Assembly: GCF_900142125.1 (NCBI RefSeq)
Contig: NZ_FQZT01000012.1
Coordinates: forward strand, 51,965 to 99,273
Reading direction: 5' to 3'
DNA length: 47,309 nucleotides
DNA from: Malonomonas rubra DSM 5091
GTDB lineage: Bacteria; Desulfobacterota; Desulfuromonadia; Desulfuromonadales; Geopsychrobacteraceae
Part shown: one piece after another, positions 26,008 through 32,318 of the stretch
Layout: each line of letters begins with the position of its first letter
Position numbering within the stretch: the stretch's first letter is position 1
Program-made: the position numbers and the translations under genes
The notes under the pieces: model-generated
Told to the model about the DNA's origin: nothing
The model's database searches: none
What the model saw: only the letters and a program-made list of their open reading frames with translations

Positions 26008-27375
26008 TCAACGATGAGAGAAATCGCAGCGATCAAACAAGACTTTGAGCTTCTCTTCCCGGCTTCCCCGCCAGCGTGCCAGCAGTTGTTCCGCCAGAGT
26101 TTCGCCACTTTCGACAAGCTCTTTTAACGGGTACAGGAAACTGCTTTCATCGGCCCCGGTGCAACCAGCTTCAAACTGCCGGCGCAAACTTGTGCTCGCT
26201 AACGGCAACAACTCTGCAGCGATCTCCTGCAGGCTCCCCTGGGATGAGGTCGCCTTCAGCCCGAGCTTCCAAGAATCACGGTAAAGTTGCAAAAAGTCTT
26301 CCTCAGAAAGACAGTTGAATAGTGATTCAATTCTCGTCAGGGCATCATCACAATAAAGCAAACCCTTATAAAAAGCCGCAACAGAGGCCGTATATGCTGG
26401 CGGCAAGCTATCAGCGCTACGAATTTCTATCTGTGGTCGCAGGCGAACCTCTGGAAACAGTGTCGACAGGTGCAGATCCCAATCCGCCAATGTTGCCTTA
26501 CATTCCTGCCAGCCAGTCTCCAGATAATGGCCGAAAGTTAACCGCTGGTTCGTCAAATTGATATAGCGGTTATCCCGTTGGATAAAGTACATGGGAACAT
26601 TGAGCGCATATTCAATATAACTGTCAAAGCCTGCATCAGGCGCAAACAGTTGCAGGATCAGCCCACAACGGTCGGCATCGGTATGCGACCAGATATGACC
26701 ACGGGTCGAGAGAAAGCCGGTCGGATTGTCTTCCATGACGGGCGAGTTGGCAAACAAAGCATAGCAGACTGGAGCCAACCATTGCACCGCCCGCAGCTTG
26801 CGCAGGCAATCGGCTTCGTCAGAATAGTCGAGGTTGACCTGGGTTCCGGCGGTCTGCTTCATCATCCGCTGCCCCATTGAACCAGCCTTCAACATATAAG
26901 GACCCATCACATCATAGCGGGCCTTCGGTAACCAGTCTATTTTCTCAAGAGGCGTAAAGGGTTGCACCCCCAAGCCAAGAAACATCAGGTCGAGTTCGCG
27001 ACCGGTCTCCATCACCAGTTGACGATAACGGCTCAGGTCACGCCAGCTGCAGTGGATGTCGCAACAGAAACGGCCAGAAAGCTCCAGCTGACCTCCCGGT
27101 TCCAACGTAATGGATGAACGCTTCCCCTGCAAACCGAGCAGATGTTCGCCTTCGTAGCTACCCTCCCAGCCACCAACGCCCTCTAGTCGCGCCAGCAGAT
27201 CACGAATCCGTTCATAACTCGCTACTTCGCCAGTTTGACGATCAACGACCAACTTTTCGCTTTCGAGCCCGACCCCCCAATCTTTTCGTGGTCGAGCACC
27301 CCGCAGTAGAAACTCTTTCAACTGCTGCGGGGCGTCAATTAACTGTGCGTGTTTATCGCTGGCAAAGGGCAGCAT
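26008..27375 (-). CDS. gshA: Glutamate-cysteine ligase, GCS2 (plant-type) family
   Basis: 455 residues. Motifs of the GCS2 family used by many proteobacteria and plants are seen: WGVGLESEKLVV near the start, YEGEHLLGL, ITLEPGGQLELSG (metal and glutamate binding), MFLGLGVQPF, MMKQTAGTQVNLDYSDE and LRPQIEIRSADSLPP. It joins glutamate and cysteine with ATP, the first step of glutathione synthesis. The start has only a weak ribosome site and lies 10 bases after the aminotransferase stop, so it is likely translated from the same mRNA and falls under the alanine-rich leader. No glutathione synthetase gene is in the window. Confidence 0.9.
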   Translation of the reverse strand: MLPFASDKHAQLIDAPQQLKEFLLRGARPRKDWGVGLESEKLVVDRQTGEVASYERIRDLLARLEGVGGWEGSYEGEHLLGLQGKRSSITLEPGGQLELSGRFCCDIHCSWRDLSRYRQLVMETGRELDLMFLGLGVQPFTPLEKIDWLPKARYDVMGPYMLKAGSMGQRMMKQTAGTQVNLDYSDEADCLRKLRAVQWLAPVCYALFANSPVMEDNPTGFLSTRGHIWSHTDADRCGLILQLFAPDAGFDSYIEYALNVPMYFIQRDNRYINLTNQRLTFGHYLETGWQECKATLADWDLHLSTLFPEVRLRPQIEIRSADSLPPAYTASVAAFYKGLLYCDDALTRIESLFNCLSEEDFLQLYRDSWKLGLKATSSQGSLQEIAAELLPLASTSLRRQFEAGCTGADESSFLYPLKELVESGETLAEQLLARWRGSREEKLKVLFDRCDFSHR

Positions 27376-27385
27376 CGGCAGCCTT

Positions 27386-28690
27386 TCAGGAACGCAGGTA
27401 GCTGGTCACCGCGTTGGCAATGGTAATGAAAATCTGCGTAAATTCTTTTTCGTCCAGTTCCAGCAAGGTTATGCGGAAACCACGCTCATCGGTACAGAAA
27501 GAGGAGATTGGCACAACGCAAATTCCGGTGGACGCAAGCAGATAGTAAACAAACCGTTTGTCTGCCTCGCAGCCTTCTTTATTGACCAACTCCTCAACCA
27601 GCTGCTTGACTTCGGCATTTTCGATATCCAAAGTCTGTTGACTATTAAGAAGGCCTTTTTCGAACACCACACTCATGTAGAAAGCGCCGTTCGTGCGATT
27701 CACCTTCAGGCCCGGCACCTCTTTCAGTAAATTATAAGCGATGTTCGAATAGTTTTCGTATCGGCTCTTCCGCTGCTCGAGATATTTTGGATATTCCTCG
27801 TGGCTGAGAATCGCCGGGATCGCTTTCTGCGGCAAAGTGGTCGAACAGACTTCGACCATTTTTGAGTTCAAAATACTCTCAACATACTTGGCGAACATCG
27901 GATCTTTATCGGCGTTGTAGACCTCAATCCAGCCACAGCGGGCGCCAGGCCAAGGGACCTCTTTGCTAATCCCCTTCATGGCGATCGCCGGCAGGTCGCC
28001 GATCAGGTCGGAGATGGGTCGGGTTGCCGTCCCGTTGTAGCAAAGGTTGTGATAAATCTCGTCACAGATCAGAAACAGATCGTACTCTTTGCAGAGGGCG
28101 ATGATCTCTTTGAGGATACGCTCCGGGTAAACGGCTCCGGTCGGGTTGTCCGGGTTAATCACCAGGATCGCAGAGATTGCTGGATTGTACTTAATTGACA
28201 AGCGCATATCATCGATATCCGGATACCAGTTGTTCTCCGGGTCGAGTCGATAGGTGACCGGCTTCTGACCTGCGTGGGCACCTTCTGCAGAGGAGTGGGT
28301 TGAATAGGTCGGTGAAGGACCGAGCACCCGAGCTTCACGCTTGAGCAGGCCATAGACTTTCTGGATGGCATCACCCAAACCGTTGAAGAAAATGATGTCT
28401 TCTGCCGTTATCTGGGTCTTGCCCCGCTTATTTGTCAGTTCGGCGAGGAACTCACGAGTCTCCAGCACACCTTTAGTCGCACAATAACCATAGGAGCAAT
28501 CTTTCATCGCCAGGTCAGCGACAATCCCCTTAATCCAGTCCGGAATCTTTTCCCCTTTCGCAACGGGGTCACCGATATTTTCCATGTTGGTTTTGATGCC
28601 AAGCTTCTTCAATTTCTCGGCGATATCGACAATAGCGCGAATTTCATAAGTCAGCTCGCCGGCACCGATGTGAACAATATTGTTGCGCAT
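27386..28690 (-). CDS. Class I/II pyridoxal-phosphate aminotransferase, probably alanine-related
   Basis: 434 residues from the ATG at 28690, eight bases after GGAG. Fold-type I motifs are present: YSYG-like YGYCATKGV near the N-terminus, VINPDNPTGAVYP, CDEIYHNLCYNG, the PLP-lysine region AIAMKGISKEVPWPGARCGWIE and a C-terminal Arg (GFRITLLE). Sequence alone does not settle the substrate; alanine or aspartate transamination is most likely. The Ala-rich leader peptide upstream argues for a role in alanine synthesis. It is first in an operon with gshA. Confidence 0.85.
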   Translation of the reverse strand: MRNNIVHIGAGELTYEIRAIVDIAEKLKKLGIKTNMENIGDPVAKGEKIPDWIKGIVADLAMKDCSYGYCATKGVLETREFLAELTNKRGKTQITAEDIIFFNGLGDAIQKVYGLLKREARVLGPSPTYSTHSSAEGAHAGQKPVTYRLDPENNWYPDIDDMRLSIKYNPAISAILVINPDNPTGAVYPERILKEIIALCKEYDLFLICDEIYHNLCYNGTATRPISDLIGDLPAIAMKGISKEVPWPGARCGWIEVYNADKDPMFAKYVESILNSKMVEVCSTTLPQKAIPAILSHEEYPKYLEQRKSRYENYSNIAYNLLKEVPGLKVNRTNGAFYMSVVFEKGLLNSQQTLDIENAEVKQLVEELVNKEGCEADKRFVYYLLASTGICVVPISSFCTDERGFRITLLELDEKEFTQIFITIANAVTSYLRS

Positions 28691-28713: not shown

Positions 28714-28748
28714 AATAAAAAGGCCATGGACTGCTCTGTCCATGGCCT
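28714..28748 (-). terminator. Attenuator terminator before the aminotransferase-gshA operon
   Basis: A perfect 10-bp stem GGCCATGGAC/GTCCATGGCC with a 6-base loop and the run TTTTTATTT on the minus strand, 24 bases before the aminotransferase start. Part of the 5' arm (28743-28736) is perfectly complementary over 8 bases to leader codons 21-23 (28799-28792), the expected antiterminator. Confidence 0.85.
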
Positions 28749-28782
28749 CGGTGTTTTTTACAAACGCGTGCAGCTTCACCCG

Positions 28783-28860
28783 CTAGGGGTGATGGACAGT
28801 TGTCAGGCTTGAACTCGCCGCCTGAATCGCTCGTGCTGCCGCTGCTGCAGTGTGGATCAT
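28783..28860 (-). CDS. Alanine-rich leader peptide (25 residues)
   Basis: ATG at 28860, eight bases after GGAG; TAG at 28783-28785. The peptide starts MIHTAAAAARAIQAASSS and then LTTVHHP, with 8 Ala of 25 residues, five of them consecutive. Its stop codon lies in the loop of a small hairpin (CACCC/GGGTG, 28777-28791). Ribosome stalling at Ala codons 5-15 would expose codons 21-23, which pair with the terminator 5' arm and allow read-through; translation to the end would let the terminator form. Frame, ribosome site, terminator and complementarity are seen directly; sensing of alanyl-tRNA is inferred by analogy with known amino-acid leaders. Confidence 0.85.
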   Translation of the reverse strand: MIHTAAAAARAIQAASSSLTTVHHP

Positions 28861-28894
28861 TAGGTTTACTCCTAAGGTAAAGTTAGCTGCTTGG

Positions 28895-28921
28895 ATTATC
28901 ACAGAGTGAAATCCAAGTCAA
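28895..28921 (-). promoter_or_regulatory. Promoter of the alanine leader transcript
   Basis: Minus-strand TTGACT (28921-28916), 15 bp, and GATAAT (28900-28895) preceded by TGT, i.e. an extended -10. Start of transcription is predicted near 28888. Confidence 0.6.
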
Positions 28922-28954: not shown

Positions 28955-29860
28955 TTACAAGGCAACCATCAGCAACGTTAAGGTCACCAGGCTGGTGAGG
29001 GTCGAGACAACAACAACCGAAGTTACAAACTGCGGGACGATGTTGTTCTCTTTGGCAATAATTGCCACCAGGATCGCTGTCGGCATAGCCGCCTGCAGGA
29101 TACCCGCGGCCGATTCAAGTGGGTTCAAAACAAACAAAGAAGAGACAACAAATGCAATGGCCGGCACTAAAAGCAAACGTATTCCTGAAGCTAGCCAGAC
29201 ATCGCTTCCCAACGAAACCCGCCGCTGCTCAAGCAACTGCAGGCCTAGGGCAAACAGCATCACCGGAATCATGGCATCAGCGAGGAGGCCGATCATGCGC
29301 GACATCATCAAGGGCACCTCTACCCCACCCAAAGAGACCAGCAACGCCGGTGGCAATGCCCAAAGGGCTGGAGTTTTCAGTACCCCCCAGATTGCTCCTT
29401 TGCTGCCATCATGGGCCCAGCCAGCAGCTCCGACACAAACAATAAATGCGCTTATGGAGATAGCGACAAAATAGATGCTTGCAGGAGCCAATGCCGCATC
29501 ACCAAGGTGAAATCGAACAATAGCGAGGCCATAGTTTCCAACATTACCGAAGGCAGCAATCATGACAAAAGCGGCAATCATCTCTTTCGAACGCCCGAGC
29601 GCCCGGCCGATACCTCCGGCAATAAACACGGCCAGCAGGTGGGACACAACGATAAAGACAACCATCTGCAAAGCCGCATTGAGCTCGATCTGCGACTGAC
29701 TGATGGCCTGAAAGATAAATGCCGGGACAAAAACGTAATAGGCACTGCGAGTCAGTGTTGCCGCCTGCAGCTGCAACTTGCCACCAAGCAGAAAGCCGAG
29801 AGCGACAATGCCGAAAACCGGCATGATCACGTTGAAAAATATGGAAAAAAGCTCCAGCAT
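28955..29860 (-). CDS. AEC-family (auxin efflux carrier-like) membrane transporter
   Basis: 301 residues from the ATG at 29860 (AAGG upstream; a GTG two codons earlier is less likely). Almost wholly hydrophobic with about ten membrane segments in two five-helix halves separated by a short polar loop (GWAHDGSKGAIWG). Family features are the N-terminal MPVFGIVALGFLLG, AAFGNVGNYGLAIV and the C-terminal QAAMPTAILVAIIAKE. AEC carriers move organic acids such as malate or malonate, or amino acids; the substrate is unknown. The 170 bases upstream hold only a weak hairpin. Confidence 0.85.
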   Translation of the reverse strand: MLELFSIFFNVIMPVFGIVALGFLLGGKLQLQAATLTRSAYYVFVPAFIFQAISQSQIELNAALQMVVFIVVSHLLAVFIAGGIGRALGRSKEMIAAFVMIAAFGNVGNYGLAIVRFHLGDAALAPASIYFVAISISAFIVCVGAAGWAHDGSKGAIWGVLKTPALWALPPALLVSLGGVEVPLMMSRMIGLLADAMIPVMLFALGLQLLEQRRVSLGSDVWLASGIRLLLVPAIAFVVSSLFVLNPLESAAGILQAAMPTAILVAIIAKENNIVPQFVTSVVVVSTLTSLVTLTLLMVAL

Positions 29861-30033
29861 ATACACCTTCTCAAGAAAAGAGAGGAGATCAAATTACCGC
29901 TATCTGTCTGTTTTCAGCAAACAAAAAACGCCCCGGCACCTGCGTACCAGAGTGCTGAGAAAGTGGGCTTAAGATTTGGGTTGGCCAACAGCCTGCGAAG
30001 CAGTCGCCACTATACGATAAGCGAGATGCGAGC

Positions 30034-31278
30034 TCACTGCCGCCACTGATGGAGAGTAGTAGCGATGATGTCGAGACAGTCCGGTGCCCGCACGACTTCT
30101 TGATACCCCGGAACGGCTCCCACCCACTTGCCCAGCCGAACGTTACGTTCCTGTGTCAGATAGAGGGTGGGCAACCCCATAAGCGCCGGCCCGTCCATAC
30201 CAGCACTAGTAACGCCAATCTGCCCCACTAGGCCGTGATGTTTTTTCAATTCTTCAAACAGCTGCAGTTGAGCGCGGCGCATATCCGGCCCCTGAAAGAG
30301 CGGTTCTTTCCAGCACAGAGTCAGGTCGACTCCGTTTGTCGGAACAAGCTCCGTGGGAACAGCATCGCCGAAAAAGATGGGAGAGAAGCCGGCATTCGCT
30401 ACCAGTTCAGAAAGCTGCTGCAACTCAGCGAAACAGGTATTGCGCTCGATATCGTGATCACCCGTTCGGACCCAAAGCAGTACCTTCTGCGCTGGCTTTC
30501 CTTCCACGATGTCATCGACCCACGAATGCAAAGAAGCCGATGCCGATTCGCCTCCCAGAAACGCTGTGCGAAGAATTTTCTGTGCTCCTAAAGCATCAAC
30601 GCGAAAAGCCTCAGCGATGATATGAGTGAGATGCTTTGGACTGGCCGGACGTGGCCGGTATGGGCGCAATGATCCTTCCAACCCGGCATCAAGAAGAAAT
30701 CGCTTGGCCTGCAATTCCTGGACAGCACCCGGTTTAATTTGAATGGGGACGCCTGCAAGCAGCGCAGCAGCGGCCAGGTACCAGCCTTCGCCAAAGGAAA
30801 AACCGGGGTCAGCATGGAAAGTGTAAGCGCGGTTGCGCTCTGTGACGATTTTTCTGGCGGCCTTTGCGGCACCTTCAGCCCTGCCGGCAATCTCACTCGC
30901 TTCGGCCGTAGCAAGAAGCCGGGCCAAACGTGCGGCCTCCACTGACGCATCCTCCGCAGTACAAACGATCTCCTCAACGCGCTGCCAGCCGTCTTCACAA
31001 TCTGACAATGTGGGCGCCCGCTGAGATCCGCGCGAGAGCTGTCCGCCACCATAGCGCGCATCCTCTGCCCGAGCTGCATGCGCCCTTAGCAACACCCGCT
31101 GGAGCAATGTCCCTTCTTGGTTTTCCTCCGTGTCGTTCATTGCCCTTGTGGCTACTAGAACAACCTGCTCCAGCCGACATCTATAATCATCACGCACTCC
31201 GGGCAAATGCAGCTTCCCCTGTAATCCCGAGGCCTCTGCCAAAAGAGTGGCGGCCTTTTCTGCGAGCCCCCTTGTCAC
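30034..31278 (-). CDS. Uncharacterised protein, GT-B glycosyltransferase-like C-terminal half
   Basis: 414 residues from a GTG overlapping the epimerase stop. The first ~200 residues are Ala/Arg/Glu-rich and mostly helical with no known motif. The C-terminal half looks like a Rossmann domain of GT-B glycosyltransferases (QKVLLWVRTGDHDIERNTCF, SPIFFGDAVPTE, then GVTSAGMDGPALMGLPTLYLTQERN, like the donor-site loop of heptosyltransferase-type enzymes). Coupling to a sugar-nucleotide epimerase supports a role in surface glycan or nucleotide-sugar metabolism. The assignment is tentative. Confidence 0.6.
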   Translation of the reverse strand: MTRGLAEKAATLLAEASGLQGKLHLPGVRDDYRCRLEQVVLVATRAMNDTEENQEGTLLQRVLLRAHAARAEDARYGGGQLSRGSQRAPTLSDCEDGWQRVEEIVCTAEDASVEAARLARLLATAEASEIAGRAEGAAKAARKIVTERNRAYTFHADPGFSFGEGWYLAAAALLAGVPIQIKPGAVQELQAKRFLLDAGLEGSLRPYRPRPASPKHLTHIIAEAFRVDALGAQKILRTAFLGGESASASLHSWVDDIVEGKPAQKVLLWVRTGDHDIERNTCFAELQQLSELVANAGFSPIFFGDAVPTELVPTNGVDLTLCWKEPLFQGPDMRRAQLQLFEELKKHHGLVGQIGVTSAGMDGPALMGLPTLYLTQERNVRLGKWVGAVPGYQEVVRAPDCLDIIATTLHQWRQ

Positions 31279-32285
31279 AGTAACTTCTTCGACCAGGTCT
31301 TCGGCGCGCGCGGCCCGTCTATTTCCAACTCAACATTGTGCAAAAATGGGCGAGGTCCGCGAGATTTTATCCAGTCGATCATAGCAGCCAAGCCCTCCTC
31401 GAGCTTCACTTTCGGCTGATATTCAAGCAGTCGCCGGGCTTTGTCGGCGCAGCAGTTGGCAAAGAAAACTTCCTGGGGGCGACTCTCAATACGATTCGGC
31501 TTGAGATCGAAATCGAGCAGTCGGGCGATGGTACTCGCAAGCTCGTTGATGGTCACAAACTCATCATCGGGACCGATATTGATGACCTGCTGGACACAGC
31601 AATCATCTGTGGCCATGCGCAGCAGCGGATCGACCACATCGGAGACAAAACTAAAACAGCGCTTCTGATTGCCATCCCCGTAGATATAGGGTTGCCGTCC
31701 TTGCAACATCAGGTTGATGAAAATGGCGGCCACGTTTCGATACGGGTCGTCGTAGCGCTGGCGCGGCCCGATGATATTGTGCGGGACAGCCACCACCCAC
31801 TCCATCCTGTGGGTTTTGGCAATATTGGCAAGCAACCGCTCCGCACACCATTTGCCAATGCCGTAGGGATCCTGAGGAGCCGGCACCATATCCTCAGTAA
31901 AGGGAACCTCATTGGTGCCATATCTGGCCATGGATGAGCAGAGAATGAAGCGCCCTACTCCTCCGGCCGCTGCAGCGGAGACAACTCCCGTAGTCGCCGT
32001 GACAACGTTGCGGGTGACCAGGTGCGGGCTGAATACAGAGAGTCCCTCATAAGCTGTGGCAGCGCAGTGGTAGACAACATCAACCTCTTTCAGCAAAGCG
32101 GCCAGCGGCGCAAAATCGTTGCAGTCGATTTGATGGAACGCAGCACCACTCGGTACATTGTCAAGATAGCCACCAGTTAAGTTGTCACACCCTGAAACCC
32201 GGCAGCCTTCAGCCAGACATCTGTCGGCAACATGACTGCCCAAAAAACCTGCTATCCCAGTAATGAAAACATGTTTTCCGTTCAT
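31275..32285 (-). CDS. NAD-dependent sugar-nucleotide epimerase/dehydratase
   Basis: 336 residues from the ATG at 32285; a GTG three codons upstream is possible and neither has a strong ribosome site. Extended SDR features: NAD motif VFITGIAGFLGSHVADRCL, LDNVPSG, CSSMARYG with the active-site Ser region, and YGIGKWCAERL with the Tyr-x-x-x-Lys pair. GDGNQKRCFSFVSDVV is the substrate-domain motif of UDP-glucose epimerase/WbpP-like enzymes. It probably modifies an NDP-sugar for a surface polysaccharide. It overlaps the glycosyltransferase-like gene by four bases. Confidence 0.85.
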   Translation of the reverse strand: MNGKHVFITGIAGFLGSHVADRCLAEGCRVSGCDNLTGGYLDNVPSGAAFHQIDCNDFAPLAALLKEVDVVYHCAATAYEGLSVFSPHLVTRNVVTATTGVVSAAAAGGVGRFILCSSMARYGTNEVPFTEDMVPAPQDPYGIGKWCAERLLANIAKTHRMEWVVAVPHNIIGPRQRYDDPYRNVAAIFINLMLQGRQPYIYGDGNQKRCFSFVSDVVDPLLRMATDDCCVQQVINIGPDDEFVTINELASTIARLLDFDLKPNRIESRPQEVFFANCCADKARRLLEYQPKVKLEEGLAAMIDWIKSRGPRPFLHNVELEIDGPRAPKTWSKKLL

Positions 32286-32318
32286 TTGAGGCACACCATA
32301 ACAGATATTTCATCCCGA

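Follow-up and report, generated by a model that had tools for sequence, protein, structure and literature searches.

A putative alanine-sensing transcription attenuator upstream of an AlaA-like aminotransferase gene in Malonomonas rubra and its relatives

The minus strand of the 47,309-nucleotide stretch of Malonomonas rubra DSM 5091 DNA that we analysed (the window) carries, upstream of an aminotransferase gene, a short alanine-rich reading frame followed by an intrinsic terminator. Judged from sequence comparison, this element is very likely a ribosome-mediated transcription attenuator that senses alanine via charged tRNA-Ala and controls alanine synthesis. In the mechanism we propose, scarce alanyl-tRNA would stall the ribosome on the Ala codons of the leader, and the stalled ribosome would leave a downstream segment (region 2) exposed. 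Region 2 would then pair with the 5' arm of the terminator (region 3), the terminator would be blocked, and the aminotransferase gene (and gshA) would be transcribed. With plentiful alanyl-tRNA, the ribosome would reach the stop codon and cover region 2, so that the 3:4 pairing would form and transcription would stop. The features of the locus are listed in Table 1.

Table 1. Features of the putative attenuator and its downstream genes, in window coordinates
Feature	Position	Strand	Remarks
-35-like hexamer TTGACT	28916..28921	-	read from sequence
-10-like hexamer GATAAT	28895..28900	-	34 nt 5' of leader ATG
Leader ribosome-binding site GGAG	28869..28872	-	8 nt before ATG
Leader peptide gene MIHTAAAAARAIQAASSSLTTVHHP	28783..28860	-	ATG...TAG; kept as Ala-rich frame in relatives
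Putative control codons GCA GCA GCG GCA GCA CGA GCG	28828..28848	-	five Ala, Arg CGA, Ala
Possible small hairpin CAGGC...GCCTG inside leader gene	28804..28824	-	by eye, also in several relatives
Region 2 of antiterminator, CTGTCCAT	28792..28799	-	leader codons 21-23
Region 3, ATGGACAG	28736..28743	-	terminator 5' arm; alternative partner of region 2
Intrinsic terminator (regions 3:4)	28717..28747	-	10 bp + TTTTT; terminator scan
Class I/II aminotransferase, NCBIfam NF005334 (PRK06855)	27386..28690	-	E 7.6e-226; 434 residues
Glutamate-cysteine ligase, gshA-like	26008..27375	-	TIGR01436, PF04107

The initial annotation had described a GGAG site with 8-base spacing in front of a 25-residue peptide with 8 Ala, five of them in a row, and a perfect 10-bp terminator with 8 bases of its 5' arm complementary to codons 21-23. 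All of these features were found exactly as described. The eight Ala residues of the leader are encoded by four GCA and four GCG codons, the terminator reads GGCCATGGAC-AGAGCA-GTCCATGGCC-TTTTT with a hairpin energy of -22.2 kcal/mol, and CTGTCCAT is the exact 8-base complement of ATGGACAG. The RNA fold of the leader region had a z-score of -3.95, and 0 of 200 shuffles were equally stable. A promoter consensus scan that allowed spacings of 16-18 nt reported none before the leader; the actual TTGACT/GATAAT pair is spaced by 15 nt. When the best-scoring hexamer pair was chosen at each locus, TTGACA or TTGACT was present in 68 of 78 loci, and at least 8 of 12 promoter positions matched before the leader in 75 of 78. 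The Rfam search of the region returned three sub-threshold hits only, so that the region matched no described T-box or riboswitch family at threshold. The terminator arms, whose sequence is kept across an order, include the palindrome CCATGG, and region 2 resembles part of region 4.

We searched for the same arrangement upstream of aminotransferase orthologues. With a best E below 1e-100 as the criterion, orthologues were present in 57 of 60 genomes, own included; upstream DNA was available for 56 loci, two of which were cut by contig ends, leaving 54 usable loci of the same order. The initial annotation had suggested looking for Ala-rich frames before orthologous genes, and 53 of these 54 loci (own included) have a short Ala-rich frame with an intrinsic terminator behind it, the sole usable locus without leader and terminator being L044. 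From a further 80 loci of named genomes, removal of 29 duplicates, 3 loci without a gene start and 2 short loci left 46 new loci, and 30 of them were assigned to the same order by identity and, where telling, by title. Leader and terminator were found in 26 of the 30, with L089, L091, L094 and L100 having neither. The other 16 were out-group orthologues (L117 and L119, which carry Desulfobacterales titles, and 14 others, most of them under Desulfobulbaceae titles), in which leader and terminator were both absent. In none of the 16 did Ala exceed the level of shuffled DNA at p < 0.05, the lowest value being 0.08. If L117 and L119 are counted inside the order, the count for named genomes becomes 26 of 32. 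Two further sets of same-order loci, both overlapping partly with the named loci, had leader and terminator in 18 of 19 and both elements in 4 of 6 cases.

The class-wide sample comprised 117 genomes, 57 of them from other orders; 40 of these 57 loci were sampled and 17 were left out. Leader and terminator were present in 32 of the 40, either as a frame with at least 7 Ala plus terminator (26 loci) or, in one genus (g54), as a hand-set frame with a run of 4-5 Ala plus terminator (6 loci). The remaining 8 loci kept the gene and had neither leader nor terminator. The terminator lies 16-40 nt past the leader stop in all 79 leaders of the aligned set. The case named beforehand as contrary to attenuation, hairpins kept where the Ala codons are not, did not occur: leader and terminator were co-present or co-absent across the loci compared, and Ala codons, terminator and antiterminator were conserved or missing together. 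Excluded from all counts were L029 and L030 (55 nt upstream only), L130 and L134 (short), L088, L118 and L135 (no gene start) and G006 (a match without a gene start). Leaders were set by hand for L015, L075 and L105, where the leader is farther upstream, and for the six g54 leaders; the leader start of L182 was probably placed too late. Seven loci (L010, L011, L014, L015, L024, L075 and L105) have additional DNA between the terminator and the gene start, with the leader 240-430 nt upstream and both leader and terminator present.

A sub-lineage of the same order that has no leader or terminator (L089, L091, L094, L177, L181 and L229, L177 being a repeat of L089) still carries the aminotransferase gene. 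Its loci have a promoter-like TTTGACTT...CTATG(C/T)TAACCA immediately before the gene, and the palindrome-like GAATACTGTATACAG or a near variant at sites about 160-190 nt before the gene. This palindrome-like sequence may be an operator that substitutes for the attenuator in the leaderless sub-lineage.

Enrichment in Ala codons was measured on 40 clustered leaders. Ala accounted for 400 of 1245 residues in the leader frame, whereas the two remaining frames held 97 and 49 Ala, and the mean per leader was 10.0, compared with 3.2 expected by base composition. Because the frames had been chosen for Ala, the same choosing was applied to dinucleotide-shuffled DNA: the best Ala count per short frame averaged 10.1 in the clustered loci and 3.8 in the shuffles, with 31 of 40 loci individually at p <= 0.01 and 9 of 40 not. 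Across the aligned codons, Ala columns differ at their third base and yet remain Ala. The locus thus has a short gene with a start, a ribosome site, a stop and an enrichment in Ala codons, as expected of an attenuator leader. As a control, we examined 30 upstream regions of alaS genes, including that of the own genome, where the best Ala count was 0-8; 5 of the 30 had a frame with at least 5 Ala, and no hairpin with a T run lay behind any of these five.

The Ala codons of the leaders also differ in kind from those of the structural genes. A CGA-Ala core is present in 32 of 40 clusters, and 85 of the 106 Ala codons 5' of the CGA in these were GCA or GCG; in the aminotransferase genes, taken from 23 loci, the corresponding figure was 179 of 688 (p ~1e-26). 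This preference would fit sensing through one tRNA-Ala isoacceptor.

Covarying stems had been the second feature that the initial annotation suggested comparing. The terminator 5' arm was able to pair with the leader end in 79 of 79 leaders. Across the 40 clusters, leader ends paired with their own arms at a mean of -19.7 kcal/mol, compared with -16.1 kcal/mol for swapped partners, and 0 of 20,000 permutations reached the observed mean with 40 or with 23 clusters (shared ancestry ignored); with fewer clusters, 16 of 20,000 permutations did so at 15 clusters and 64 of 20,000 at 7. With the other orders added (54 clusters), the means were -19.3 and -15.9 kcal/mol, again with 0 of 20,000 permutations and with ancestry ignored. 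Pairing was 6-7 kcal/mol weaker when the arm or the leader end was reversed or when other leader windows were used. At one arm position, the A of 8 clusters paired with T in 7 and was unpaired in 1, the G of 25 clusters paired with C in 20 and T in 5, and the C of 7 clusters paired with G. The association of arm A/G with T/C gave a Fisher p of 0.0002; the pairs were those of the best duplex, a choice that favours pairing.

Alignments gave a graded picture, and all covariation statistics were computed without regard to shared ancestry. Among 23 sequences in a close alignment, pairing was found in 99.5% of the antiterminator cells, compared with 27-39% when the partners were slid, and 2 of 500 shuffles were as high in cells paired and in score. 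One antiterminator pair changed from C-G to U-A in 4 of the 23 sequences; the count of pairs with both sides changed, 1, was not above shuffles, 385 of 500 being as high. In a looser alignment of 17 sequences the antiterminator had 80% of cells paired, compared with 26-43% when slid, and its count was not above column shuffles (141 of 500 as high). Overall, comparison of the relatives showed that antiterminator and terminator are mutually exclusive and that covariation supports the antiterminator, with the exception that the 17-sequence alignment did not beat shuffles. RNAalifold recovered the terminator from both the 23 and the 17 sequences. Inside the leader gene it gave only weak pairs for both sets, which on the 23 sequences differed from the CAGGC...GCCTG hairpin that lies between the Ala codons and region 2. 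Because RNAalifold chose other, weaker pairs, we do not claim this hairpin as conserved. The terminator 5' arm AGGCCATGG hardly varies within the order, and other orders have different arms, for example GGCCGTGG or GCCGCGGG. The constancy of AGGCCATGG seems to exceed the demands of two alternative pairings.

An alternative explanation is an ordinary terminator of upstream transcription that lies behind a spurious GC-rich frame; in its favour are the terminator-like hairpin with a T run and the fact that GC-rich DNA often yields Ala codons by chance. The results disfavour this explanation, and we regard it as barely credible. In the window, the leader is separated from the upstream gene by a promoter-like pair, and 75 of 78 leaders have a similar one in front; the Ala excess is frame-specific; leader end and terminator arm co-vary; and an Ala frame with terminator was absent before the 30 alaS genes, just as Ala frames were not enriched before the 16 out-group orthologues.

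To relate alanine-sensing attenuation to ribosome position, we compared the footprint of a ribosome at each Ala codon and at the stop codon. With the ribosome on an Ala codon, region 2 was free for a mean of 8.1 of the 10.0 Ala codons; the number of such codons ranged from 4 to 13 per leader, with at least 4 in every cluster. With the ribosome at the stop codon, region 2 was overlapped wholly in 12 of 40 clusters, where it starts <=18 nt from the stop, and partly in the rest. Ribosome-masked folding predicted a mean probability of 2:3 pairing of 0.68 for a ribosome stalled at Ala and of 0.08 for one at the stop, the latter in part a consequence of the method, since region 2 lies wholly or partly under the mask. 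In 35 of 40 clusters the stalled value was more than 0.1 above the stop value, and in 5 it was not. Without a ribosome, the mean was 0.55 (range 0.00-1.00 across clusters), so untranslated RNA would often read through. For the window, the predicted values were 0.87 stalled, 0.00 at the stop and 0.46 with no ribosome. In the trp design as generally described, a 1:2 hairpin protects the untranslated RNA and termination follows; the present element differs, in that for many species the antiterminator is predicted to prevail when the RNA is not being translated.

One feature of the leaders is not accounted for by alanine sensing, namely a near-invariant CGA codon. It occupies one aligned position within the Ala tract in 60 of 79 leaders, with Ala next in 75 of 79. 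Arg codons at this position are CGA in 60 of 65 cases, compared with 34 of 545 for the aminotransferase genes, where CGA is rare among Arg codons. The codon often stands within the nucleotide context GCACGAGC (28828-28848 and aligned leaders). The strict pattern A-A-R(CGA)-A-x-x-A-A matched only this leader in the own genome, so there is no second leader of that exact form there; a reversed control pattern had 3 matches.

The fixation of CGA in the leaders against its rarity in the genes would be expected if the leader sensed arginine, or slow translation in general, through this codon and its Ala richness were secondary. We consider this improbable, since each leader has one CGA as against 5-14 Ala, Ala codons flank the CGA on both sides, and the product of the target gene is AlaA-like. 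Moreover, 14 of 79 leaders have CAA, CAG, GCC, GCA, GAG, GAA or ATA in place of the CGA and still retain their Ala codons and the terminator. The core A-A-R-A-x-x-A-A, recognisable across the order, could also suggest an Ala-rich nascent chain that arrests the ribosome or senses a ribosome-targeting drug instead of alanyl-tRNA. This is highly improbable in our estimation: the length of the Ala tract and its neighbours vary widely, the aligned leaders have no fixed C-terminal arrest motif, and the regulated gene encodes an amino-acid enzyme and not a resistance protein.

The family of the downstream enzyme, NF005334, is named only 'pyridoxal phosphate-dependent aminotransferase'. The best PDB relative of the enzyme was E. 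coli AlaA (4cvq, E 1.6e-45), with the putative transaminase 1xi9 also close (both E about 2e-45). AlaA is a glutamate-pyruvate aminotransferase whose substrate and cofactor residues are named in the available text of PMC4094517. Of that list, the plug residues Tyr15, Ile17 and Arg18 and also Tyr129 have the same numbers in the window enzyme, and the residues aligned with Asn179, Tyr210, Lys240 and Arg248 match as well when counted on the alignment; numbering relative to 4cvq used an inferred chain offset of 26. The PLP-lysine of AlaA is matched together with the plug and other PLP residues, giving the enzyme an AlaA-like set. The window enzyme belongs to its own family (NF005334/PRK06855), and in the alignment with 4cvq the anchor residue Pro20 of AlaA has no Pro partner; AlaA Arg378 falls outside this alignment. 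A search of the own genome with the alanine dehydrogenase model TIGR00518 gave no match, and the aminotransferase shares 26% identity with its next listed relative there. Taken with the AlaA-matched residues, this makes alanine the likely product, and the window enzyme is probably an alanine aminotransferase. The suggestion in the initial annotation that an alanine leader would point to the substrate of the aminotransferase gains strength from these AlaA-like residues.

The same annotation had named an aminotransferase-gshA operon as the target. The gshA-like gene starts 10 nt past the aminotransferase gene and is probably co-transcribed with it; it matched PF04107, and TIGR01436 at 387.8 bits, under the cut-off of 463. 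Among the 110 loci searched (duplicates and out-groups included), gshA matched in the flank of only 72, so the constant target is the aminotransferase and not gshA. In the same flanks, a pyruvate:ferredoxin oxidoreductase matched at 19 of 110 loci and a PF03547 transporter at 21 of 110. In the window, an auxin-efflux-carrier-type membrane transporter (PF03547) lies upstream of the leader at 28955-29866. Farther on, a 414-residue frame at 30034-31278 (minus strand) had no Pfam match at E 0.001, and its start shares 4 bases with the end of a sugar-nucleotide epimerase-like gene (31275-32294).

Classical proteobacterial amino-acid attenuators serve trp, his, phe, leu, ilv and thr. The window element is like them in its leader rich in the amino acid of the pathway, its alternative 2:3 and 3:4 hairpins, its intrinsic terminator and its downstream biosynthetic gene, and unlike them in that the amino acid sensed would be alanine. 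A similar leader occurs in Streptomyces lividans, a member of a phylum other than that of M. rubra. In S. lividans TK24, an alaL leader before alaS was identified as an attenuator through RNA-seq, and its authors call it not previously described (PMC8079986). The AlaL peptide, MNVIGRNIFATARATSSPVAAA, has 6 Ala; like the window leader it is alanine-rich and contains A-R-A, and it precedes a tRNA ligase gene, whereas the window leader precedes an aminotransferase gene (PMC8079986). The available portion of that paper gives no analysis of conservation or of an antiterminator (PMC8079986). The string ATARATS of the L051 and L052 leaders is identical to a stretch of S. lividans AlaL.

Among the open PMC matches listed, alaL is the nearest precedent that we found in print, and those papers held no alanine attenuator before an aminotransferase. 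The available parts of PMC2965389, PMC1262725, PMC4833913, PMC8269248 and PMC3890552 mention no alanine leader. The surveys of Vitreschak 2004 and Lopatovskaya 2010 fall outside this literature coverage, and priority is therefore not certain. An alanine-sensing attenuator is unusual, as the initial annotation had held, with the qualification that an alanine leader has been proposed once before, for alaL/alaS (PMC8079986). Within ribosome-mediated attenuation, the amino acid, the target and the clade would be new. A broader interpretation, which we hold only tentatively and think rather unlikely, is that alanine attenuation represents a general mode of control with a codon grammar of its own, A-A-R(CGA)-A-x-x-A-A, and that the CGA codon would pace the ribosome for timely reading of Ala; Streptomyces alaL, with its A-R-A and ATARATS, would then be an independent or ancient instance.

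The class that carries the element includes metal reducers. If alanine-sensing attenuation is the correct reading, it would add an attenuator for an amino acid usually left off the list, kept across a bacterial class, and it suggests that the function of the NF005334 family may be the synthesis of alanine from pyruvate.
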